From Sphaerolaimus hirsutus (Eukaryota > Nematoda > Chromadorea > Monhysterida > Sphaerolaimidae), in contig OZ038458.1 of the NCBI GenBank assembly GCA_964036195.1, forward strand, positions 25,929,832-25,993,831: a stretch of 64,000 bases of DNA. The letters are read 5' to 3'. Shown in pieces: positions 40,601 through 58,600 of the stretch. The position numbers and the translations under genes were made by a program. Position 1 is the first letter of the stretch, and every line of letters starts with the position of its first letter. Below the pieces are notes generated by a model. That model saw nothing but the letters and a program-made list of their open reading frames with translations. It searched no databases and was not told the DNA's origin.

Positions 40601-43600
40601 GGGGGGGGGGTATTTCGAGGGGGGGGGGTGATTGTTTCATAGTGGTCTCGAGAGGGGGGGGGTCAAACGAGGGGGGGGTATTTCGAGGGGGGGGTATTTC
40701 GAGGAAATACGGTAATTGTATTGATAGGGTCGAAATTACGTAATTCATAAATACAATGAAATCAATGCTTGTGAACATTAGCTGCAAAAAAATACTTGGC
40801 ATTTTGAGAAAGCATGCATAAAAACAACTCTCATACATAGACGGATATGTCACCGACTCTGGAAGACGAGTGAGGAAAAAATAATCCCCCCCCCCTTGAA
40901 TAATCCCCCCTCTATAGGCGGCGCAAGGTCTCAATTTGTGCTTGTCACATTCACAATCACATTGGCCAAAATTTGACCTTGTGACACTTTTTGCTAGGTA
41001 AACATAGATGATCATGCTTAAAGTTCGTATTTGTGCTGGTGACAGCGAAAACACCGCTTGTGACATTGACAAGCGCACAAGCACTTGCGCCCCGATGCCC
41101 CCTCAAGAGATTTCATCGATTGGTTGTGCTCAATTTTCACAAAAATGACATGTTATTGTGTTAATCTACCATTTTCCTTGAAATAAGATGATAATCACAT
41201 CCTTGAAAATTTTGACAAAATAAAAATTCACCCCTCGAATAATCCCCTCCCCCTCGAACAGTTCCTCCCTCAAAAAAGTCTGACAAAATAATAATCCTCA
41301 GGGGGATTATTTAAGCAAATACGGTAATTGGATGATGGAAACTTTTTTACATGGCATATACACATACAGTGTATGATGGCATTACACGGTGTCATTTGAC
41401 ACTGTCAGGGGTGGCACCGATTGTGTTGTCCGACCATAGTTGAGATGATGTTATAGGCGGCTTAAGTGCTTGTACGCTTGTGAATGTCACAAGCGGACTT
41501 TTCGGTGTCACAAGCAGAAATACCAATGTTTACCTAGTAAAACGTGTCAAAAGGTCAAATTTTGGCCAATGTGATTGTGAATGTCACAAGCACAAATTAG
41601 GACCTTGCGCCGCCTATGACAATAAGGGATGGAAAATGCGTTTTTTCTCTAACATACATACCGTATTACCTTGAATTAACCCCCCCCCCCCCTCGAAATA
41701 CCCCCCTAAAATTCGGCTGAGGAAATAATAACCCCCCCCCCTCGAAATACCCCCCCAAAAATTGAGTGTAATGTGAACCTACATAACAAATACCGCAGTT
41801 TGTGATCTGTACAAGGCAGAAAACACCTAAAAACTGATGATAAAGTGACGTTAGGGTAGGGTTACTGTGTATATGAGTCAGTCCACGAGTCAATAGCCAA
41901 AACTTGGACATCTCAAAAAAAAATTTATTTTCTTAAAGTGTTGCCCATATAGCACTGATAAAAAAATCATAGTTCATTTTTTCAGTTTCCTCTTATATAT
42001 AGCATAATCGAGCATTTTCACATGAAATAGTGACCTGAGGTGATTACATCACAATTCACGCCTTAACCGTGTCCAGGACAAGGCAGTAGACACACATTGT
42101 TGCAAAGCCAAGATAGTTCTCTATCAGAATACACAGACTTTTTGGGGTGTTCCCCTCAGGTCACATATACCTAAGAAAGCAAAATGTGCCACGTGCAGTT
42201 TTCTGCGGCACAGTCACATTGAGATTTAGGCGAAACCGGGCAAAACTATTTGCTATGATTCATACCACAAGATAGCTGAGATTGTGCTCTTTCAGAATCC
42301 ACTGCTTTCCAGATTGTTCACTGTCACGATTTTATACCTAAGAAATCAAAAAAGTAAAAATTTGACAATCTGACGTCATTGTATCACAATTGAGGCCATA
42401 ACTGAGGATACATATAGGCTTTATTTTATACTGTTGTGTCGCTGAGAATGTGCTCTTTCTAAATCCACAGACTTTTCAGGGGTTTAATGAAGGGAATTCA
42501 CCCAAGAGGCCAAAACGTGATGACAGGGGAGATTTTGGCCGATTGAGTTGCGAATCACGCGTTAACCGTGTCCGGGACAAGGCAGTAGACACACACCGTT
42601 GCAAAGACAAGAATGTCCTCTATCAGAATTCACAGACTTTTCGGGGTGTTCCCCTCATGTCACATATACCTAAGAAAGCAAAACGTGCCACATGCAGTTT
42701 TCTGTGGCACAGTCACATCGAGATTAAGGCGTAACCAGGCAAAACTATTTGCTATGATTCATACCACAAGATAGCTGAGATTGTGCTCTTTCAGAATCCA
42801 CTGCTTTCCAGATGGTTCACTGTCACGATTTTATACCTAAGAAATCAAAAAGGTGAAAATTTGACAATCTGACGTCATTTCATCACGATTGAGGCTGTAA
42901 CTGAGGATACATATAGGCTTATTTTATACCATTGTGAAGCTGAGAATGTGCTTTTTCTGAATCCACAGACTTTTCAGGGGTTTAATGAAGGGAATTTACC
43001 CAAGAGGCCAAAACGTGATGGCAGGGGAGATTTTAGCCGATTGAGTCGCAAATCACGCCTTAACCGTGTCCGGGACAAGGCAGTAGACACACACCATTGC
43101 GAGGACAAGAATGTCCTCTATCAGAATTCACAGACTTTTTGGGGTGTTCCCCTCATGTCACATATACCTAAGAAAGCAAAATGTGCCGCATTGTTTAGAG
43201 CGCAGTTCTATTTTTATGCTTTATTCGAGTCCTCACAACAGCTGCTCATTGTACCCGTTTGAGCTCTTAAATGGCAAAATCACAGGATTACACAAGAATC
43301 ACATTTACAGGAAATATCCATATGATCACAATATCATATCACATTCCACCCTTCAAAACAAACCAGAAAAAGAACTTTGTAAAGTTGTCATAGGGTTGTT
43401 ACTCTGTAGGCCCTCCAGTAGACGTGGTGGGCTGGTTTTCGGCCACGGTGGCATTCTCCAATTCGGCGGGTAGCTGCTGATCCATCTGAAACAGTCAAAA
43501 TTCATAATTTTAGAATTATTAAATTATTTAATATAATCTTAACCTACATTATCACAGTTAAGCAGCCAAAGCTCTTCTTCCAAAGTGACTCTGGGACCCA

Positions 43601-46600
43601 CATAGGGGTCACAAATTTGCAAAAATTTGCTTTCTTCAGACAGAGATGAATGTGCATAGTAGTTATTCGGTGCGATTCTCATTGTCTGAAATTCTAATTA
43701 GTTGGAGATTTGTCAGTTGGAAACCAGTTCAGTAATATTTCAAATTTTCTCGTTTCTTTAAGTTCAATTAAATAACCCAATTTTAAACACATAAAGATAA
43801 AAGATTTAAATTAGTCACAAACTGGTTTTTCTTTTTCCTTTTCCTGCACCATTGGTGGTGTGCTTTCTGGCTGTGCCTGATATTGTGGTGGCTGGAAGAC
43901 CGAGTTCTTTATAGCCATTTGTGCCATGTGCCCAGCAGTGGCGCTGACGCCCGAAATACTGACATTTGTCATTGGCAAGCCAGCTGAGTTTGATGCTCCC
44001 ATTGTGCCCATTGTGCCCATTGTGCCCATTGCAGAGTTGTTTTCATTTTGATACACCACCACCACGTTTGGTTCATTCCATTGTCCCGACTGTAAAATTG
44101 TGTGAAATAAATTCAAAAATTTTGGTTGAGTTGTCTTATTGTTTTATTGTAAATTATTTGTTTTATTGTCAGTTTATTTATTTGAGTATAAATTCCCATT
44201 TTCCATTTAGTGTCATTTTCCCATTTTCCTTTTTGTTTTTGGTTTTTACTTTGCCAGTTTTTACTTTGCCAGTTTTTACTTTGCCAGTTTTTACTTTGCC
44301 ACTTTACCTGGTCATAGGAGTGGTCATATGGGGTTGGGCGGTTATGATAACCCCCGCGTCCCCTGCCGCGATAGGAACCCCCGCGGCCCCAGCGTCTCCC
44401 ACCGTGCGAAGCAGTGCCCCTGCCATAATTCATCGGCAAAGGCCAGTAATCGGCCGGGTTTGGGTTGTTGCTTAGGAGGTGTTCCAGGCTGTAGTTTTAT
44501 TGCTCAAATTAATTTATAATTTTGATTACGTATTTATGTAAGACTAAGTTTATTTTTTAAAATTTATATTTTATTAAAGGTTTATTTAAGTTAATTAAGA
44601 AAACTCTCTTTTTGTTTTTAGAATATTTTAGTTTTTATATGTTTATATTTCCCTTTCTGTTTTATTGGTTTGAATGGTATAAATTTTATTTACCGTTCGG
44701 GGTGTTCCATTGCATGCCCACTCAACAAATTTTCCAAGCCCACTGGTTCTGTTTTCACCGGTTGTGGCTTCTGGGGCATTTGAAACGAAGTCATCAGATT
44801 TGGATACATAGTTTTGATGCGCTCCAATTCAACGTGCGCATTGCCACATTTTGCATGCTCAATTTGCAACTTGGATAGTTCAGTTTTGGTCTGAACTAGA
44901 GCCCTGGCCAGTTCGGCATTATTTGCTTCTCTTCCCACTACTTCTCCAGAGACCATATGCAGAAATGGACCACACCTATAAGACATGTACCGAAAATTAA
45001 CGGTTAAATTAATGTAGTTCACTGTTTTTATTCTTTTTCAGGATTTTTCAGTTTTATTGACATTTTCAATTTTATTGACATTCTTGTAGAGTTTTTCTTT
45101 GCAATTAATTTTTCGTATTTTGATTTTTATTTATTTTTAATAAATCCAGAGTTTGTTTTTGTCATAAAGTTCAGTCTAACCTTCTGCACGTTTGGATGTG
45201 TGTCTTGTTTGTGTAGCAGAAACCGTTCACAAGTTTTTGTTGCAGTGACTTTTGGCTGTTGCCAAATTGTCCAGCTTGGAGTTGTGCCATGGTTTTTTGT
45301 GCTTTGTTGTCCAAGTTGACGGTTGTTCGACTGATTTTGGGCATGTTTGTGGCCCATTTAGGTATCTTTAAATCCGCGGGAGTGGATGGATACTTGTTCG
45401 TTTCCGTCATTGAAAAATGCGTGTGCGTATACAAATCTTTTTGTTTTTTCAAAAAGAAAAAATTTCAGCGTCACTTGGCACGTGTTCAATTGCATTCTCT
45501 TTGACGCTCAATTTTGCTATGTCGGACAACCTGTCGAGCTCTAGCGGGACTGCTGGTTTGTTTTTATTGTTTGTTTTCGTTTTTATTCGTTGATTTCTTA
45601 GTTTTAATCAAGTTTGTTGACTTGGGTTGTTTTTTGGCACTGAGCCGAATAGTGTTGTTTTTCGCAGACACTTTGCAACGGTTGGCGCGGTTGGAGGTGG
45701 CGCGCGAGGTGCACCCGGGCCACGCCCAATTTTGGGGCGACGGCCAGCGGCGACGCACTCCGGCCATTTGGATGATAAATGGCACGAACACGGACGACAT
45801 GCATTTAAACGACGCCGCGAAGTTGCTTCTCAGCCACCATGAAAACACTCGTATTGGTTAGTTTTCTTTGTATGGTGTCTTCGTTTGGCAAGTGTTTGTT
45901 AAGAGTGTTTTGTTTAAAAATCGTTTGAATTTTTAATTGGTAATTAATTGATTTGTACCGTTTAAATTAATAATTAATGAATTGTTTTATTTTCAGTTAG
46001 CGCGCGACTTGGTGGGCAGGTGGACGTGGTGGAGATTGAATTTGTCGATTTTTCTGTGCAGGAGCATGAAAATCGCAAATCTATTGGGCGCCAGTATTAT
46101 GCCAGCACCAATAAGAGTTACATCGGCGGCACCAAGTCCACTTTGGTCTCCAGTTCGTGCAATGTTGATGTGAGTTCTGTGGGTTTATTGGTTTGTTTTT
46201 ATTTTGTGAATTTGTAAATCTCTGTATTACTTTCTATGATTTTATAAATCTCCACAATACGTTTTAGAGTTGTGTGAATTTCCATAAATTTGTAAATTTA
46301 GAATTTATCTCTTGTAATGATTCTATTTATGGTTTACTGGTAAATAATTTGATAATTTGACTTTATTAATGTCGCAGGTGTTTTTCCGGCACCACCGAAC
46401 GGATTATCCGGTGGTGTTGGAGAATGGTCGATATGTGCCGGCTCGCGTTTTGTTGGTGCGGCTGTGCACTTTCAAAGAGTGTGAGAAGCGGCACACTCAG
46501 CAATTGCACGATTTGGACGTTTGCCAGATTTACCCAAATGCGGCTTTGGGTCTCCCGGTTTGTTATCTTTTTGCTTTCTGTAGTTTGATAGCCTTGCTTG

Positions 46601-49600
46601 TGTTCCAAGAGAATTAAATTGATTCAGTTTAGATATACTTGCTGTAAAAAACCAAATTAACAAGTTTTATTTTATTTTTCCAGGTTCATGTGTATTCCAG
46701 TCTCAAGGGCGAATTTCTGCCAGACTGTTTGGGCGCCTGTTTGCGCTATGTTGGATTTCAAACTCGTATGATTGAACGGTGCTGTTTAATTGGCTTTGGT
46801 GATTATGAGGAGATTTTGGGTGTTTTGGTTGGTTTAGCTGGTATTTTGTGGGGTTTATTTCGTTGGTATTTATTCCAACTGTAAATTTATTTTACTTATA
46901 CTGTTTGATTATCTCATAAATGATTGTTTATTTGACTGAGATAAAAAATAATGCAGAAAGAGTCCGATCCGTTCAATTGGAATCGGAAGCAGTTTGGGCG
47001 CCTATTTGAAGCGGGGATGGTGCACATTCACCCGGCCGTGTTGGACGCGCTGTCCAATGTCAAGGATCATTATTGCTACCAATGTTTCAACGACAGAGTT
47101 GGTAGTGATACTTTTGCACCGGGTTACAATAATGTGATGGAAGAGGCGGGTAAGCATCGGGCGGAAAAGTTTGAGGGCAGCCCGTATGCCAAGCCGGTTG
47201 CGGGCGGCCCGCCGCCTGCAGTCGCTTGGTATGACCGGCGGAATACTTTCAATATGCACGAGTAATTTGTAAATTTGCCACGGTAAATCATCAATTTACT
47301 TGGCGGATTGCAAAGTATGTGCCTTCGGTTAGTTGGGTTTGTTTTTGGTCTAATGAGCCTTTTGAAATGAATTTTTGGGTTTTAAATTTTAATGAAATAA
47401 AGTTATTTTGTCACAGAAGGCTCATTAGATTGAACTCTGTTTCAGGTTAATTGATGCAATTTAGAGGTGCGTGTGTGCATTTAGAGGTGTGCGTTTTCTA
47501 GTACTATGGTGGCATAATGATTCAAATTTCATTGAAAGAAAAAGTTGAAATATAAATTTTATTCTAGGTGGAGACTTTTTGTTTTATTCTAAAGTCGGAA
47601 TTTTGTAAATTGACTCCAAACGAGCTGTTATTATGCCTCCATTGTTATCCGTTAGTGTGGCCATGTTGTTGGTTAGTTTTTCCACTTTGAGCGGGCCAAA
47701 ATATTTTGGCGCAAGTTTGTTTTCCCCAGTGTGTTTTACTAGTACTGAATTTCCCACGGCAATTTTATCCACAATTTTGAAGCGTCTTCTTTCATTGAAC
47801 CATTGTTGGTATTTTTTCTTTGCATTGTCAGTAGCATATTTTGCTGATCTCCATGCTTTTTGCGGATTTTCGGACAGAAATATAGCATTTGATAAGTGAT
47901 TCATTTTTGGCATGCGGCCAAAAACTAGCAAGAATGGTGGCATACGAGTGTATGAATTTGTTGCAAGATTGTGCTTCAAAATTGCCTGTGGGAAATTATC
48001 CACCCAGTCATTTCTTTTTTCATTCATAATTTGCAGTTGCGTGCAAATTGTTTGGATGGATCTTTCTGCTAGGCCGTTAGTTTGTGGGTGATATATTTGC
48101 CCCGTTTTATGTGTTATATTCCATTTTTTGGCGAAATGTTGGAATTCCTTTGAAATAAATTCAGGCGCGTTATCAGTGTTTAGAACTGAAGGTGGTCCAT
48201 AAATGGCACAAAAGTTTTTTTCTATTGTAGTGATTAGGGTGCTAGATTTTCTATTTCTTACTGGGAATGCTACCACATATCTGGTAAGTGCGCAGATCAT
48301 GACAACTAAATATTGATATCCACGTTTGCGTGGTAATTCGACCAGGTCCATATGAACTGTATGGAATGGCTGTTCTGGGGTCGGAGTATTCAGTAAGGGT
48401 GCTTTGCCATGCTTGTGGCTTTTGAACTTGTGGCATGTTGTACATTTTTCACAAAATTGTAAAATGTCTTGTCGGATTCTTGGCCACGTGCCAAAAGTTG
48501 TCAACAATGCTAAAGTTTTTTCCGGACTTCCATGATTTGCATACAAACCTGCATGTGCCTGTTCTAGAAATGCATGATGCCAATGTGCTGGCACCCATTT
48601 GACAAACAGTTGTGGTCTGTAAGGTGATCTTACATGAACTATGTTTTGAATTAACGCAAAATTTTCTAATTTTTCTCCACTCTGCAATTGTTTATATACT
48701 TTTTCGATGGATGGGTCGGTTAATTGATTTTGGTGCCAAACTGAAATATTGCTGTCACTGACTAAATCATTGCTTAATGCAGGCAGTTCATTGGTGTTCA
48801 GGTATTCTGTTAGCATTGTTGACTCCCCTGGCGCTGGTGGCATTAGTGAAGGAATGACATCTATCAATTTTGCTGAGTCATGTAGCAATTTATCATCTAT
48901 TGGGTCGTTTAGTTCAATAGGGTTTCTACTGAGCTGGTCAGCTAGTTTGTTGAAATTTGCTGGTCTGTGTTCAATTCTTGTGATAGTTGATTGAAGGTAC
49001 ATTGCCCACCTTTCTAGAACTGATGGATTAGGAGTTTTGTATGCTTGAACAATTCCTGAATTGTCTGTTTGTATGCTCTGTCCAATGCTGGCCTGATGCC
49101 TTCTGCACTTATATCATGTCCTAAATATCGTAGTTTATTCACCAGAAAGAGGCATTTTTTAGGTCCTAATTTCAGTTTGGCCCATCGCAATCGTTGGAAT
49201 ACCAATTTCAAACAACTCAAATGATCATCTACTGAGTCAGTGGTTAGAAGTAGGTCATCTAAATAGCTTCGTACCCATGGGCGGCTGGCATGTGCTGGTT
49301 CCACAAGTCCTCTCAGCATTGTGTTCATTAATCTTTGGAAGGTGGCTGGGCTACCCGAGGCTCCCATTGGGCAACGTTTAAATCGGAATTGTCCCAAACT
49401 GCACACAAAAGCTGTTGCATCTCGGGTGGCTTCATCCGCCAAGGGAAGATTATAAAATCCGTGTTTCAGGTCCAATGAGGAAAAAATTTTCCTTCCAGCT
49501 AATTCTGTCAAGATGTGGCCAATTTGAGGTAGTGGGTAGGACTGTACTTGTGTTACCTGATTTAATAGTCGATAGTCTACTGTTAATCGCCAGTCATTTT

Positions 49601-52600
49601 CTCCCTTTTTGACAACATTTATTGGACTTGCCCATGGTGAATCACATGGCTCAATTATTCCCCTAGCTAACATTTGTTCAATTGTGTCTTTTATGTAAGG
49701 CCTTTTTTGTGGTGCTTCATAACGTACCGCTTGTTTTATCGGTTTTTGTGATGGGTCAATTCTGATTTTATGAGCTATCAAATCAGTGCATCCTACGTCA
49801 TATTCTCCACAACTGAAGACGTCTTCAAATTGTTCCAGTAGCTTGTGAAATGTTGATTGTTGCTTTTGCGACATTTCCACCATGTTGGATGTTGGGAGAT
49901 TTTCCTTGATATATTGTATTCTTGCCACTTTTTCAGTGGGAAATGGAGGTGTTGGTTCAGCAAAATCTGGTGGTAATGGTTCTTGTACTGCCACATTGAC
50001 TTCATTTTGGTGATTTTTAGTCTGTAGTGGATGTTTTTTGACTTGAAATGATTCAATCATTGTTTCTGGAAACCATTCTCCCAACACCATGGATTTTTTC
50101 AAAATGAGTTCATTATCAGAATTGTTGCAAATTAATGCATTGATTTCATTTTGTGACGGGGTGCTCATTAATATATCTGGGCATTCTATCCAGGGATTGT
50201 GTTGTTCTAATTTTTGTAAGGAAATGATTCCCTTAACTCTTGGTGTTTTATTCTGTCCATGCTGCGTGTGTATGTGGATGGGTATGGTCATTGCTGAATG
50301 TGCTGGTATCCTCATTTTCGCATTTGGGTACACTTTTGATTTTCTAATGTGTTTCCAATCGGTGTTTGGTGTCAGAAAATCTTTCAATATTTGAATGATA
50401 TCCAGTTTTTTCATTAAGTCTAATCCGATTAAAATTCGATTGTTGGCGGAATTACAACAGTTGACCAAAAAGTCCCAATTCAATTTTTGGATTTTCCCTT
50501 GTTTTGTTGTAAATTCTATTGGTAGCGTGGTTTTTTTAATTTGATTTTCTGGGAACATCCCATTAGCGTGGCTCACTTGAACTGTGGCAACTTCTAACTT
50601 TCCATGATTTGGGTTTTTTGGCACTGTTGGTACTAAGTAATGTAGTATTTTCTGCGGAATGAGCGATTTAGTCGCACCTGTGTCTAGTATTGCTTCCACT
50701 GTGTGATGGAATATTTTTAATGGAATTTTAATTAATGATGGTGCTGTCTTTTTTGGTTGCTCTACGGATTGTTTTTGTTTTTGATTTTTCTTTTGTTTTA
50801 GTGTCTTCTTTTTCACGTTTTTGTTCATTCGCAATGCACGAGTAGAGACGACATTTACGTTCTGCACTGCAGAACCAGACAATTTGGATAATTTATCACA
50901 TCCGGTTGTTGTGATCACATTAGTTTTGGCCAAAACATTTTTCAAAATCATCAAAACCATCAAAATTATCATTTTCGGGGCCTGGAATCCTTGCATTATT
51001 GCGACTGGCAGTTTCTTCCACGAATTGTAGCAGGTTGAATTCGTCTGTGATGGTGAAACTTTTTTGTTTTTTGTGCAATTGTAGTTTGTGCAATTGTTAT
51101 TTGTGCAGTTGTAACTTTTCTCTGAAAAGGACTCACCATTTTCAGTGTCCAAGTTTTCGGTCAAAGTGCCATCGTGCTGGTCTTCCGTCCCATTCTCGTC
51201 ATTGTCTTCATCTGCATCCGGGGTTTCTTCATGTTCAATTTCATTTTCACCCTCATTGGTTTCCACATTTGCCAGTAGCAGTTGTTGCACTGCGTCGATT
51301 AGTTCTGACACGTTCACTTCCACTTTCCTGGGAGCGAGTGGTCCAGTCATGGGTTTTTTCTCCGCATTCTGGTTTTTCTCCATGGATGGAAAAAATCTTG
51401 GAAATGGTGTGTTTTGTTTTTTGATGATTGGATTGTTATGGGTGGCAGTAGGGCCCACCATTTTGACGCCACTATAACCTGCGGATGGTGGCAAACGGGT
51501 TACATTCCCTTTTTCGGTGCAATTTGCTGCCCGGTGTCCCATTTTGTTGCAATTCAAGCACTTCAAAAATCGGTCCCTATTAAATGGCTTTTGCTGCCCC
51601 CCTGGAGTGGTTAGTGTTTTCCCAAAATTGGGGTTATTTGACTTTGCCACGAAGCCCCCTGGCTGTGTTGTTTCGTTTTTGAACTTTGGCCCTTTGACAC
51701 CGGCCATGCCTAGCCTTTTCAAATTGAACAAATACGTGTCCAAGCGGAGGGCCGCTTCCCTTGGTTGGGTCACAGTTCCTTCTTCGATGTCATTTTGCAA
51801 AGCCAGCAAAACAGTTTCATCAAACCAGGCGGTTTTCACTCCATTCATGAATTGGGTGAGAATGATGAAGTTTTTCTCCTCGTCCGCCATTCTTTTGTGA
51901 TATTCCAGTGGCAATTTTGCCATTAGTCTGGCGCAGAACATGATGCAGGTGTCGTTTTCTTGTTGAACTAGCCGCCACCATTGGTGCACTGTCAGGCGTT
52001 GGGTGTGTGTTTTGAACATGGCGGAGAATTGTTTATTGATGAATTTGTGGTCATTTTTCTGCTCGTTGGAATAAGACTTGTAAACGTCTTTGGCACAGCC
52101 CTTGAACTTGGCTACGAACACCATTCGCCAAAAACGATCCATCAGTGTGTCAGGCACCATAAATAAGTGCCTCTCAACTGTTTCCACCCAGTCTTTAAAA
52201 TCATCCCCATTGCCATTAAAATCCGGAATGGTTGTTATGACCACTTGCAATGGCATTGCTCCACAGCTTGCCATTTTTTCTCCATCCGAAAGTTGGCTCG
52301 GCAGGGCCATTTCATCCAGGTTTACCACATTTTCTTGTGGTGGGTTTTCCGTTGGGTTTATTTGATTTGCTGTGCCATGTGTGCTATTTGTCAACTTTTT
52401 TAGCGAGTTGATTTGTGTGTCGATGTTTTCAAATCTGTCATGCATGATGGCGGTGGTATTTTCAATGGACTGTTTTAAGTCCTGCTGCATGTTTTGCAGC
52501 CACGACCACAGCACATCATTGTTTTGGGTATTCAATGTCTGATTGGTTGCAGGCATAGCACTCGAGGACTGTAACAAAGTTGTGTTATTTTCGGTTTCGC

Positions 52601-55600
52601 GTGTGATACTGTGTCCCTCGGGATTAGTGAATTCGTCCAATTGTTGCCATACAGCAGTGTGCACACTGTCTGGCGAGTCAGCGGTTGCGTTTGTCGCATT
52701 TCTTGCGTTTCTCTGCCGCGCAATAGCAGAGTTCACGTTACTGAAAAATTGCTCATACGTTTGCCCATTGGCAATATTCAGATTTTGCGAACGCGTGATT
52801 CTATCGGTGTGTGGCGGGGTTCGCTCCATTTTTGTTTTAAATTCTGTGTGGAGAGATCTTTTTCAGTGCCCGATGGCAGTGTCTATGATCACTCCAGATG
52901 AATTTTTCATTCAATTGCCCCTATTCCATATTCAGTGTGGAAAGATCTTTTTCAGTGCCCTTTGGCAGTGTTCACGATCAGTCCAGACAAATTGGATGGC
53001 ATCAAATTGTCCCAGGGACAATTGTGTAGCTTGTTGTGGGAGTCCCTACCCCGCCCGAAAAGCGTAGAAGTGCTCGTCCACCAAGTGTTTAGACAATTCA
53101 AATGCTTGCAAGCGAGAAGTCCAGGGTTCGATCCCCTGCTCGTCCACCAAGTGTTTAGAGCGCAGTTCTATTTTTATGCTTTATTCGAGTCCTCACAACA
53201 GCTGCTCATTGTACCCGTTTGAGCTCTTAAATGGCAAAATCACAGGATTACACAAGAATCACATTTACAGGAAATATCCATATGATCACAATATCATATC
53301 ACGCATGCAGTTTTCTGTGGCACAATCACATCGAGATTAAGGCGAAACCAGGAAAAACTATTTGCTATGATCCATACCACAAGATAGCTGAGATTGTGCT
53401 CTTTCAGAATCCACTGCTTTTCAGATGGTTCACTGTCACGATTTTATACCTAAGAAATCAAAAAGGTGAAAATTTGACAATCTGACGTCATTGCATCACG
53501 ATTGAGGCTGTAACTGAGGATACATATAGGCTTTATTTTATACCATTGTGAAGCTGAGAATGTGCTCTTTCTGAATCCACAGACTTTTCAGGGGTTTAAG
53601 GAAGGGAATTTACCCAAGAGGCCAAAACGTGATGGCAGGGGAGATTTTGGCTGATTGAGTTGCAAATCACGCCTTAACTGTGTCCGGGACAAGGCAGTAG
53701 ACACACACCGTTGCGAAGACAAGAATGTCCTCTATCACAATTCACAGACTTTTTGGGGTGTTCCCCTCATGTCACATATACCTAAGAAAGCAAAACGTGC
53801 CGCATGCAGTTTTCTGCGGCACAGTCACATCGAGATTAAGGCAAAACCAGGCAAAACTATTTGCTATGATTCATACCACAAGATAGCTGAGATTGTGCTC
53901 TTTCAGAATCCACTGCTTTCCAGATGGTTCACCGTCACAATTTTATACCTAAGAAATAAAAAGGTGAAAATTTGACAATCTGACGTCATTGCATCAACCA
54001 TTGTGAAGCTGAGTATGTGCTCTTTCTGAATCCACAGACTTTTCAGGGGTTTAATGAAGGGAATTTACCCAAGAGGACAAAAGTGATGGCAGGGGAGATT
54101 TTGGCCGATTGAGTCGCGAATCACGCCTTAACCGTGTCCGGGACAAGGCAGTTGACACACACCATTGTGAAGCCAAAGGATCCCTCTATCAGAAAACACA
54201 GACTTTTTGGGGTGTTCCACTCAAGTCACATATACCTAAGAAAGCAAAACGTGCCGTGTGCAGTTTTTTGTGGCACAGTCGCATTGCGATTGAGGCAAAA
54301 CCAGGAAAAACTATTTGCTATGGTTCATACCACAAGATAGCTGAGATTGTGCTTTTTCAGAATCCACTGCCTCCCAGAAGGTTAAGACACAATTCTATAC
54401 CTAAGAAATCCAACATCTGTAGATTTGATGCATTTTTGATTTCTTATGTATAAAAGCATGATGGTCAACCTTCTGGTAGGCAGTGGATTATGAAACAGCA
54501 CAATCTCAGCTATCTTGTGGTGTGAATCATAGCAAAAAGTTTTTCCTGGTTTCACCTCAATCGCGATGTGACTGTGCCGCAGAAAACTGCATGTGGCACG
54601 TTTTGCTTTCTTAGGTATATGTGACCTGAGTGGAACACCACAAAAAGTCTGTGTATTCTGATAGAGGACTATCTCGGCTTTGCAACAATGTGTGTCTACT
54701 GCCTTGTCCCGGACACGGTTAAGGTGTGATTCGCGATGCAATAGGCCAGAATCACCCCTGCATGCACGTTCTGGCTTCTTTGGTAAATTCCCTTCATTAA
54801 ACCCCCGAAAAGTCGGTGGATTCAGAAAGAGCACATTCTCGGCTTCACAACGGTATAAAATAAAGCCTATATGTATCCTCAGTTACGGCCTCAATCGTGA
54901 TGCAATGACGTCAGATTGTCAAATGTCCACCTTTTTGATTTCTTAGGTATAAAATCGTGACAGTGAACCTTCTGGAAAGCAGTGGATTCTGAAAGAGCAC
55001 AATCTCAGCTATCTTGTGGTATGAATCATAGCAAATAGTTTTGCCTGGTTTCGCCGTAATCACGATGTGACTGTGCCGCAGAAAACTGGACGCGGCACTT
55101 TTTGCTTTCTTAGGTATATGTGACCTGAGGGGAACACCCCAAAAAGTCTGTGTATTCTGATAGAGGACTATCTCGGCTTTGCGACAATGTGTGTCTACTG
55201 CCTTGTCCCAGACACGGTTAAGGCGCAATTCGCGACACAATAGGCCAGAATCACCCATGCCAGCACGTTTTAGCCTCTTGGGTAAATTCCCTTCATTAAA
55301 CACCTGAAAAGTCTGTGGATTCAGAAATAGCACATTCTCGGCTTCACAACGGTATAAAAAAAAGACTCTATGTATCCTCAGTTACGGCCTCAATCGTGAT
55401 GCAATGATGTCAGATTGTCAAATTTTCACCTTTTTGATTTCTTAGGTATAAAATCGTGACGGTGAACCATCTGGAAAGCAGTGGATTCTGAAAGAGCACA
55501 ATCTCAGCTATGATGTGGTATGAATCATAGCAAATAGTTTTGCCTGGTTTCGCCGTAATCGCAATGTGACTGTGCTGCAGAGTTGTACAAATACTGGTAT

Positions 55601-58600
55601 TTTTGGAAAACGTAAACGTAAGCGTAAATACCTTTTCTAAATTGTGAGTATTAATACTGAAAACGTAAAATACTTTTAAAATACACGGGTAAATGAAAAT
55701 AAAACGTAAACGTAAAAATTTCTTTGGTTGAGCACTTAAAATGATCAGAATGATGTGGCAATCACTTTTATGAAGCAATTACAATGATTACAAATGAAAG
55801 ATAAAATATTTAATTCACTACAATGTCCATAGCCACTATTGTCAACTGATCGGAGTCGTAGCTGTACAGAGAATGGAACTATCTCTGTCATAAACTGACA
55901 ACAAATTTTGAACAAAAAAGTAAGATAAATATAAAATATAAAAATGATTTGAAGTTCAACAAAATTTTAGATTCGCTCATCAGATCACGTATCGGGTATA
56001 ATGGATTTCACAGTAGGCATATTTATTTGATGGGAGGTTTACAAAATAGGCAAAAACGGTTGGGTAAATATATCGCTGTTTTTTGAAATATGAATAAGCA
56101 CATACTATGGACAAAATTGCACAGCACATGAAGCCTTGGCTGGTGCTTTTCCCGGTGCCTTTTACTCTGGCCCTGGTGCTAGCACCTTTGGCACCGGCAA
56201 AAAAATGGCACCGCACCGCACCAGCACCGGTGCTATTCTGAAAAAAATGGGACCAGCATGGCACCCTTGAAGATTGCAATGGCACCGCACCAGCACCGGT
56301 GCTGGTGCCCTTCAGTATTTTCCATACCATTTTTACGTTTTCTCTGGTACCCGGGTAATTGTGCCAGGAAAACGTAACAAAACGTAATGGTATTTTTGGA
56401 AAACGTAAACGTAAACGTAAATATAAATACCCAAATAACCGGGTATTTCGGGTAAACGTAAATACGTTTTTCCAACTCTGCTGTGCTGCAGAAAATTGCA
56501 CACGGGACGTTTTGCTTTCTTAGGTATATGTGACCTGAGGGGAACACCCCAAAAAGTCTGTGAATTCTGATAGAGGACATTCTTGGCTTCGCAACGGTGT
56601 GTGTCTATGGCCTTGTCCCAGGCACGGTTAAGGCGTGAATCATGATGCAATTGGTTGGAATCATCTCTGCCAGCACGTTTTTGCTTCTTAGGTATACGTG
56701 ACCTGAGGGGAACACCCCAAAAAGTCTGTGAATTCTGATAGAGGACATTCTTGGCTTCGCAACGGTGTGTGTCTACTGCCTTGTCCCAGACACGGTTAAG
56801 GCGTGAATCAAGACGCAATCAGCCGGAATCAGCTCTGCCAGCATATTTTGGTTTCTTAGGTAAGTTGGTTTCAGCAAATCCCTGAAAAGTATGTGGATTC
56901 TGAAAGAGCACATTCTCAGCTTTGCAACAATATAAAATATGGCCATTATATTTTTATAGGCAAGTGCCCAACAGCGAATAATGTCAGAAATGCCCAATTT
57001 TGGAAATATTCACTTTCAATTATATGCAATATATAGGAATGAAAATTTTACATGTTTTTCACAACTCACTGGACCCATTGGAGTACCTTAGGACCATTTT
57101 TGCAATTTTCTTTTTTTTATCGGTGTCCAGGGTTTGTTCCTGGAGTGGCTATTGACTCGTGGACTGACTCATATACAGTTTTAAATGCTTATAAACACGT
57201 ATACATCCGTGTAATTGCTTGTTTTTTATACGTCTGAGTATGGAGGATTTCGGAAATTTTCTGGCGAAATAATAGAGCCCCCCTCGAATAACCCCCCCCC
57301 CTCGAATTATCCCCCCCTAAAATTTTGCTGGCGAAATAATAAACCCCCTGGGGGTATTTCGAGGTAATACGGTATACAGGTATATCAGATGAGTCGAGTG
57401 CTATATATACCGTATTTCCTCGAATTACCCACCGGGGGGGTGGGTTTCAGAGCGGAAATTTTGAGGGGGGTAAAACGAGGGGGGTATTTAGAGGGGGGTT
57501 TATTATTTCGCCAGAAATTTTTTGAAATCCCAGTACTAAATAGTCGTCTGAAACGTACTCAGACATCGACAAATGCAACAAAAACAGCCATGTATAAGAG
57601 TCTATTGACTTATATACGCATGTAGATGGTTTAAACCATGCTCAATTGTAACACAGTCATTGTTTTTACGTGTGTTATGCATCACCCGGATAACAAACAA
57701 CAGTACGTTCTCTATACACTCAATTTGGGGGGGTATTTCGAGGGGGGGGGGTTATTAATTCATAGTGTCCATTTTGAGGGGGGTATTTCGAGGGGGGGTA
57801 TTTCGAAGGGGGGGGGGCATTTGGAGGAAATATGGTATGTGTTATATATAGCCATACAACGGCTATGGAGCTATGGGATAACATAGTAAGCGGTGCTTTG
57901 TGCAAAAAATCCATTTTTATGTCAACTCATCAGGTATATTGCCTTTCATGGCTTGTGACTTTCCGAGAAATTGTTTCTACCAATAAAATCAATCTGCCAG
58001 CACAACACGCTAGACTAAACTTCAGTGAACTGAGTACTGAATGACGTGAACTGTGATTAACCCTCAAAGATGCACAAAAACATTTGCAGTCATCCCCAGA
58101 GGGTTTGGATATACCATCAGCTACCTATTGGGTATATGTCATGTTTGCAATTGCCGAGATCCTGGTGTCAGATTCAATTTGAACGTAGGACACGCGTAAG
58201 GCACCCGCATACGAAATTGTGCATGGATAGGGTTGGGAAAAACCATTGTTTCAAGTTGATTTGAAAACTAATTAATTTTTATTATTTAAAAAAAATCTAT
58301 TAAAAATGATTTAATAAAAATATAATCAGAAATTGTCCAGCTGAGGGCATAGAGTGAAAAACTGTTAAGTGAAAAAATGTGGCCACACAAGCTAGTTTTC
58401 AATGTTCCTTTTTGAAAACTCGTAAATCAGCATTGAACGCATTGAGTTTTCTAGAATAGGTCGTTTTTACTCTCCGTCAACTGTAGATGACGGACACCTC
58501 ATTCTAGAAAACTCAAATGCATTCAATGCAGATCTACAAGTTTTCAAAATTTTGGTTGAAAACTAGCTTGTGTGGTGCCAATATGTTACCAATACCAATT

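Follow-up and report, generated by a model that had tools for sequence, protein, structure and literature searches.

On the minus strand of the window (the whole 64,000-nucleotide stretch of Sphaerolaimus hirsutus DNA that was analysed), positions 43192..53301 are occupied by a 10,110-bp Ty3/Gypsy-type LTR retrotransposon. Two head-to-head six-exon genes sit between its integrase and its polypurine tract: P, antisense to the element and encoding 343 aa, and M, in sense orientation and encoding 354 aa from a conserved start at 45290, with a Cys cluster and an RGG stretch. The features along the window are the following.

43187..43191, no strand: left copy of the target-site duplication (TSD), CGCAT
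43192..43341, minus strand: 3' LTR, identical to the 5' LTR, with TG..CA ends
43342..43354, minus strand: polypurine tract, GAAGGGTGGAATG in minus-strand reading, assigned from position
43399..43485, minus strand: M exon 6 and stop codon
43548..43685, minus strand: M exon 5
43823..44089, minus strand: M exon 4
44308..44488, minus strand: M exon 3, with the Arg/Gly-rich (RGG) stretch
44694..44975, minus strand: M exon 2, which contains Cys 3 of the cluster and, by eye, a stretch resembling a coiled coil
45181..45290, minus strand: M exon 1, counted from the conserved start codon at 45290
45291..45518, no strand: intergenic stretch separating the start codons, a candidate bidirectional promoter
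45519..45555, plus strand: P exon 1
45668..45856, plus strand: P exon 2
45997..46169, plus strand: P exon 3
46378..46557, plus strand: P exon 4
46684..46827, plus strand: P exon 5
46957..47265, plus strand: P exon 6 and stop codon, with a CxxC motif
47396..47401, plus strand: AATAAA 3' of P, a possible poly(A) signal
47584..49113, minus strand: integrase ORF (rve, Integrase_H2C2)
49014..52862, minus strand: gag-protease-RT ORF (RVT_1; CCHC knuckle by eye)
49073..49076: site of a ~470-bp absence at the RT/integrase junction, relative to the C4, C15 and C3 copies
53094..53136, minus strand: additional 43-bp stretch, unaligned in the other compared copies
53138..53149, minus strand: primer binding site, TGGTGGACGAGC
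53152..53301, minus strand: 5' LTR
53302..53306, no strand: right copy of the TSD, CGCAT

The element and its gene models

The insertion is as the first-pass annotation had described it. The LTRs match at 150 of 150 bases (43192-43341 versus 53152-53301), CGCAT stands at 43187-43191 and 53302-53306, and the satellite flanks, joined across the element, align to other monomers over 499 bases with one gap and over 498 bases with none. The primer site TGGTGGACGAGC is two bases away from the LTR, and the polypurine run adjoins the 3' LTR. Assignment to the Ty3/Gypsy type, also made at first reading, is supported by the TG..CA LTRs, the 5-bp TSD and a domain scan in which RVT_1 precedes rve/H2C2 in minus-strand reading, giving the order RT before integrase; protease models were weak and below the cut-off in that scan. 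The ~470 bp missing from the RT-integrase interval, where RNase H would be expected, are present in the C4, C15 and C3 copies. The pol of the window copy is not intact, and the element is best described as a young member, with a defective pol, of a Ty3/Gypsy-type lineage. Positions 53104-53149 resemble a tRNA 3' half with CCA.

All ten predicted introns of P and M are bounded by GT..AG and have consistent phases. The two six-exon models proposed initially stand, except for the start of M. The ATG further upstream, at 45410, heads a stretch that is open in the window but shifted or stop-bearing in C15, C3a, C6 and C2; comparison of the copies indicates that M probably starts at ATG 45290 instead. 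In relatives, the start of P lies further inside, at MSSSS. For M, no exon joined to gag was seen; its predicted exons all lie 3' of integrase and read from a start that is separate from gag.

Searches for relatives and domains returned little. Pfam scans recognised no domain in P or M, DUF5701 at E 0.056 being the only result for P; the TRP28 domain (PF04195) was not found in P, nor an env domain in either protein. This agrees with the earlier statement that neither gene resembles env or another usual retroelement gene. In a set of 5.8 billion proteins, relatives numbered 0 of 2571 candidates for P, 0 of 2425 for M and 0 of 5728 for the P alignment. Matches to the PDB occurred only at E above 0.3, and relatives of P and M were absent from viral contigs.

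Occurrence of the module and selection on its proteins

In all five near elements read (C4, C15, C3, C2 and C6), the module or what is left of it occupies the equivalent position; most of P is deleted in C4 and C2, and part of M in C3a. In two distant complete elements the order is the same as in the window; one of these order-keeping elements has identical LTRs and P exons that are 25-40% identical. The outcome that would have spoken against an element-borne module, namely module-free copies with a clean secondary boundary in the window, was thus not seen in these five near and two distant elements, and a recent secondary insertion is rejected because the module, whole or in remnants, has this position in the other elements examined too. 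A TIR transposon within the element was likewise rejected, exact inverted matches between the module ends never exceeding 10 bases. An apparent module swap in L043 (C15:21.95-Mb) was discarded, as the 32%-identical integrase, which had looked foreign, belongs to a neighbouring element downstream of M; the C15b integrase values and three correlations computed along with them were accordingly left out of account. TSDs of 5 bp flank seven of eight elements, the window's included (CGCAT, AGGGT, AATGT, ATCTC, CAAAA, TGCTT and TCTGT), and the eighth, on C15, has no visible TSD.

At the level of the genome, a divergent P lies within 4.5 kb of M at 35 of 48 M clusters, and 16 of 51 P clusters are without M. 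The C2 element has kept M and lost P. Since some elements hold one gene without the other, P and M need not act together. A P-only repeat family also exists. Around six places with weaker LTR matches (C4:27.6 Mb, C591 and four of the eight on C9), P and M exons were absent at E 1e-4, which bounds the spread of the module only loosely. Two of these six stretches, L019 and L026, contain a Ty3-type RT that is 33-41% identical, and L019 has a gag remnant as well (64-66%).

Both proteins bear the marks of selection. Differences between the window and the C15 copy at codon positions 1/2/3 number 14/14/67 in the exons of P (p=1.4e-13) and 15/15/47 in those of M (p=1.7e-6), and no codon-type periodicity is present in the introns (p=0.96 and 0.83), which are far more diverged than the exons (Fisher 6e-23 and 1e-44). 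Identity to C15 is 90.7% in exons and 72.3% in introns for P and 92.8% and 67.7% for M; the corresponding values for C6 are 70.4% and 54.7% for P and 76.7% and 56.4% for M. The exception is M intron 5 (62 bp), which at 92% is conserved like the exons in C15 and C3a. Among the more diverged copies, dN/dS ranges from 0.04 to 0.16 (0.082, 0.110 and 0.042 for P; 0.154, 0.120, 0.070 and 0.063 for M), with the nearly identical C4 copy set aside. When the exons of copies are read one at a time, C15, C3a and C6 are free of stops from the conserved starts. Small exon indels in these three are multiples of three with one exception, a gap of 2 bases at the end of P in C6 that vanishes in exon-wise reading. 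Splice sites are kept among near copies, and divergence of the pair runs along with that of integrase. All seven M proteins compared share the spacing C-x9-C-x2-C, and an Arg/Gly stretch is present in the three distant ones in which this region could be located. P, also conserved, has no RNA-binding signature. Judged from these comparisons, P and M are both under purifying selection, the pair has spread together with the element, and it is almost certainly element-borne and selected; it is best read as an old accessory pair maintained by selection.

Retention and turnover of the introns

Copying of an element through RNA should erase introns unless its RNA escapes splicing, as the first-pass annotation had pointed out for the sense gene. 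All ten introns are common to the window and C6, two subfamilies between which synonymous sites are saturated. Among the matches listed, no copy of M or P lacks all of its introns. Single introns are nevertheless lacking in distant elements, and the expectation of intron loss holds in part: L035, L042 and L043 are without M intron 1, and L035 is without P intron 1 as well; in L034 and L042 the coding match runs on across the position of M intron 2, and a break lies ~20-30 codons upstream instead. Sequence comparison indicates that intron positions turn over with depth, and no single intron is therefore shown to be indispensable.

Possible roles of the pair and related systems

A mechanism can be proposed in which both genes would start from the 0.2-kb stretch separating their ATGs. 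The introns of P, antisense in the genomic RNA, would be unspliceable there and would survive; those of M would survive if the genomic RNA that is packaged leaves the nucleus unspliced. Given its Cys cluster and RGG stretch, M may be an RNA-binding factor that takes unspliced genomic RNA from the nucleus or off the spliceosome, acting like CERV of Cer1 or Rev of HIV. Export of unspliced genomic RNA is the most likely single role suggested for M by our analysis, at a confidence a little short of even. P would probably be either a partner of M or a factor regulating transcription or silencing, an assignment of low confidence. Taken whole, a lineage with a divergent spliced accessory pair, in which M would be the export factor and P its partner or regulator, is the best explanation of the sequences, with about even chances of being right. 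It is tempting to go further and propose a long-kept, two-strand, intron-bearing control module with one internal bidirectional promoter, in which an RGG/zinc-type export factor M and its antisense partner P form a Rev-like system that evolved apart from retroviruses and CERV. If this rather doubtful extension were true, the system would be of independent origin, and carriage of introns through reverse transcription would be a selected trait in spite of the turnover of their positions.

Complex retroviruses also have spliced regulatory genes (Rev and Tat of HIV) and, in HTLV, an antisense gene. They differ from the present element, where an env domain was not found and the antisense P, itself interrupted by five introns, stands head to head with a spliced M. 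A close likeness is to Cer1, a Ty3/Gypsy element of C. elegans. According to PMC10309623, its protein CERV is made from a spliced mRNA, in the interval between pol and the 3' LTR, and is required for export of the genomic RNA, the Cys loop being needed. PMC10309623 and PMC3315495 describe CERV as a novel protein of a multi-exon mRNA, coded partly between pol and the 3' LTR, with a Cys-rich stretch and no obvious relatives outside nematodes; consensus splice sites stay in the genomic RNA of Cer1 and must be skipped. The predicted gene structure of M and the selection on it would fit a protein of this kind. What sets M apart from CERV, as the latter is described there, is that CERV exons 1-3 are in the gag frame, whereas the predicted M exons all lie beyond integrase, towards the 3' LTR, and have a start codon of their own. 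Furthermore, the database used by the authors of CERV recognised no RNA-binding motif in it (PMC10309623), whereas M has an RGG stretch, and the word 'antisense' is absent from the main text of PMC10309623 and, in the available text of PMC3315495, applies only to a control probe.

Antisense coding between pol and the 3' LTR, lineage-conserved and of unknown function, is described for the plant Ty3/Gypsy elements Retand, Grande and RIRE2 in the parts of PMC7264820 and PMC11963269 at hand. In the same parts, the antisense ORFs of Retand mostly bear TRP28, unlike P, and a head-to-head spliced sense partner is not described; the word 'intron' is in neither main text. LTR elements of bdelloid rotifers carry a family-specific ORF3, typically a separate unit expressed from spliced messages, and several are, unlike P and M, of recognisable type (DEDDy, GDSL, env); the available text of PMC5408684 neither uses the word 'intron' nor describes a head-to-head pair.

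Among the alternatives, a possible if unlikely one is that the pair encodes accessory proteins acting on host silencing or transcription, the unspliced RNA leaving the nucleus by an RNA structure or a host factor. Regulatory functions have been proposed both for plant-element antisense proteins and for retroviral accessory proteins (PMC7264820 and PMC11963269), and a conserved P without RNA-binding signature would suit them; the Arg/Gly stretch and the invariant Cys cluster of M, distant elements included, point to RNA instead. An improbable alternative makes the introns themselves the object of selection, the reverse-transcribed copy passing as host DNA and evading the silencing of intronless elements. 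In human cells, long intronless transgenes are recognised by HUSH, and the presence of introns relieves this repression even when they are not spliced (PMC8770142); it is for human cells that HUSH is described. Turnover of intron positions, with some introns in each element read, agrees with selection for presence rather than position, yet most intron sequences are not conserved, and selection on introns alone does not explain the strong protein-level selection. A recently caught host gene pair or separate transposon, hitchhiking without function, would account for the unlikeness of P and M to usual retroelement genes and for the P-only family; it is very improbable in view of the dN/dS values outside C4, the divergence of the pair along with integrase, and module ends whose longest exact inverted match is not above 10 bases. 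A gene-model artefact, with chance ORFs joined by eye, for which only the absence of database relatives speaks, is rejected by codon periodicity, kept splice dinucleotides and frame-preserving indels, and its likelihood is negligible.

Ten introns in a head-to-head pair are common to saturated subfamilies (window and C6), under protein selection as strong as that on a working gene. In an animal host, the lineage offers a natural way to test how retroelements that have no known Rev protect their unspliced genomes, and antisense accessory genes would be shown to occur beyond plants and retroviruses. Structure prediction could also profit from the two orphan protein families, of which one genome supplies dozens of diverged natural variants.

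The window element and its near copies

The Ty3/Gypsy-type window element lies in a 499-bp satellite. Its identical LTRs, target duplication (TSD) and perfectly rejoining satellite flanks, recorded in the first-pass annotation, are all borne out by the 150-bp LTRs and by alignment of the flanks to satellite monomers. Its features are as follows.

43192-53301, minus strand: LTR retrotransposon, identical 150-bp LTRs, TSD CGCAT
Two bases from the 5' LTR: primer site TGGTGGACGAGC
At the 3' LTR: polypurine run
45519-45555, 45668-45856, 45997-46169, 46378-46557, 46684-46827, 46957-47265, plus strand: gene P, antisense to the element, 343 aa
45410-45181, 44975-44694, 44488-44308, 44089-43823, 43685-43548, 43485-43399, minus strand: gene M, 394 aa from the upstream ATG

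Pfam identifies RVT_1 in a 1282-aa gag-protease-RT ORF and rve with H2C2 in a 509-aa integrase ORF. About 4.2 kb separate the integrase from the 3' LTR and contain P and M, head to head. The pol of this copy is broken, despite identical LTRs and two open accessory genes: at 49073-49076, where RT gives way to integrase, it lacks ∼470 bp that the C4, C15 and C3 copies (named by contig) possess. At the other end (53094-53149 region), 43 extra bases, absent in the other copies compared, lie between primer-site copies at 53072-53083 and 53138-53149. With its CCA and perfect T arm, segment 53104-53149 resembles a tRNA 3' half, and looks as if reverse transcriptase had copied beyond the primer site into the tRNA. 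Satellite blocks occupy 42052-43191, 54433-55581 and 56510-56862; monomers from 54433 onward are oriented opposite to those adjoining the element.

The genome (348 Mb, 762 contigs) holds at least 23 LTR matches. The six nearest elements are the window copy (C14), C4, C15, C3, C2 and C6. TSDs are visible in all (in C6 by eye) except C15, a compound element. LTR pairs match at 150/150 (window and C4), 148/150 (C15 and C3) and 149/151 (C2) positions. The P-M module, or its remains, occupies the same position in each, so it came by descent with the element and not by insertion at the window locus. Losses differ: 1.3 kb of P in C4, part of M in C3 (copy C3a), most of P and the integrase in C2, and most of gag-pol in C6. 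The stretches examined around six further, weaker LTR matches (74-79%) contain no P or M exon.

Two near loci are of unusual build. At C6:21593713-21600628, P and M are open though most of gag-pol is gone, and a pol piece is inserted in one LTR; this is possibly a non-autonomous form moved in trans. At C3:27528445-27560075, two partial elements make up a 30-kb compound with one flanking TSD (AATGT).

Gene models and selection

The two six-exon structures proposed at first pass stand, with one change in M. Upstream of 45290, stops or shifts occur in C15, C3a, C6 and C2, and conservation runs from M[AS]Q onward; M therefore likely starts at 45290 (354 aa) and not at 45410. In relatives, P starts at MSSSS, further in than in the window model. 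All seven M proteins compared share C-x9-C-x2-C, and M also has an RGG-type stretch; the signature of P is limited to conserved Cys and His residues. Neither protein has a useful-score match in Pfam, the PDB or the protein set searched.

For P, dN/dS is 0.082 against C15 (340 codons), 0.110 against C3a and 0.042 against C6; the corresponding M values are 0.154 (354 codons), 0.120 and 0.063. Synonymous sites are saturated in the C6 comparison. Against C2, M gives 0.070; the P of C2 is decayed, with a large deletion besides four stops and a 2-base gap. Values against near-identical C4 (P remnant 0.54, 110 codons and six differences; M 0.22) come from too few changes to weigh. Exon differences are in excess at third positions (p 1.7e-6 to 3.7e-25), whereas those in introns have no codon periodicity (p 0.11 to 0.98), and introns diverge far more than exons, with M intron 5 the sole exception. 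All ten introns keep their splice dinucleotides in C15, and also in C6 when exon ends are read locally (the raw alignment had a gap at one donor); one M acceptor in C2 is shifted by 6 nt. Even by itself, the sequence record indicates that P and M are real, selected and spliced genes.

Distant relatives

Exon by exon, the genome gives 157 matches to P and 115 to M. Clusters built from the coordinates of part of the listed matches number 51 for P and 48 for M; among them, 35 M clusters pair with a divergent P cluster no more than 4.5 kb away and 13 have no such neighbour, while M is missing beside 16 P clusters. Reading at base level took in the six near elements, two distant ones, two more that are distant and partial, and four P-only loci. 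The two distant elements are the following.

C13:22148671-22159182 (loci L034, L036, L037): 168-bp LTRs 98.8% identical, TSD TGCTT; identity 59% in integrase and 41-77% in P exons
C14:24375658-24385926 (L035, L038): 130-bp LTRs 100% identical, TSD TCTGT; P exons 25-40% and integrase 50% identical

The second shares the primer site of the window element, arranges integrase, P and M in the same order and orientation, and has the M Cys cluster and Arg/Gly-rich stretch. By the LTR pairs and TSDs of near and distant elements, both ends of this deep divergence hold young insertions. The partial elements L042 and L043 retain the pair, with most change at third positions in every P exon and M exon 1+2 compared; one apparent stop falls in each of L042 P exon 1+2, L042 P exon 5 and L043 M exon 1+2. 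No in-frame alignment of the Arg/Gly stretch was obtained there, but matching the protein directly recovers it, open, in L042 and also in L034.

A dispersed repeat (L032:890-9001, L040:1876-9901, L041:1834-9576; copies 96-99% identical) carries integrase remnants and P exons without M. Three copies with unrelated flanks share its sharp left end, AGTAGTGGGAGTGGG, and it is not obviously an LTR element. In L032, the frame of P exon 4 is broken.

Intron retention and turnover

Open-access papers found by search cover antisense ORFs of plant elements, ORF3 genes of bdelloids and CERV, the accessory protein of the C. elegans element Cer1; none of their titles or abstract starts describes a head-to-head spliced pair. 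P introns, antisense in genomic RNA, would be safe. M introns, in sense, should disappear with any packaging of spliced RNA; full-length RNA would therefore have to leave the nucleus unspliced. Export of Cer1 genomic RNA needs CERV, made from a spliced mRNA and with an essential Cys loop (PMC10309623), and the 8-kb Cer1 RNA arises by skipping consensus splice sites (PMC3315495). With its C-x9-C-x2-C and RGG-type stretch, M could have an export or splicing-escape role, to which we give slightly less than an even chance. P may act as a partner, in transcription or in silencing. As a rival or an addition, introns may be kept to escape a HUSH-like silencing of intronless DNA, an activity described for HUSH in human cells (PMC8770142).

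Under export of unspliced RNA, leakage would look like occasional single-intron loss, as distant clades may show. The expected loss of sense introns finds a partial counterpart: among the matches listed, no whole M or P lies in one open frame, hence no wholly intronless copy, but single M intron places are read through in distant elements. Intron 1 is absent in one clade, and intron 2, with an upstream break, in two.

L034:936-1470: M intron-position difference
L042:1944-3203: M intron-position difference
L035:4101-4974: M intron-position difference

These differences may be loss, gain or sliding. M exons 1+2 form a single open stretch (NTCRRCGPF) in L035, L042 and L043, and the P start of L035 falls in what corresponds to exon 2 of the window element. 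By eye, 23 of the 115 listed M matches are open across the intron 1 place (residue ∼8-15 to 82-106). L034 (residues 113-189) and L042 (108-192) are open across the intron 2 place (residues 130/131), each being interrupted upstream of it instead, after residue ∼94-98; at least three listed M matches (residues 110-189; C14 twice, C1) look alike.
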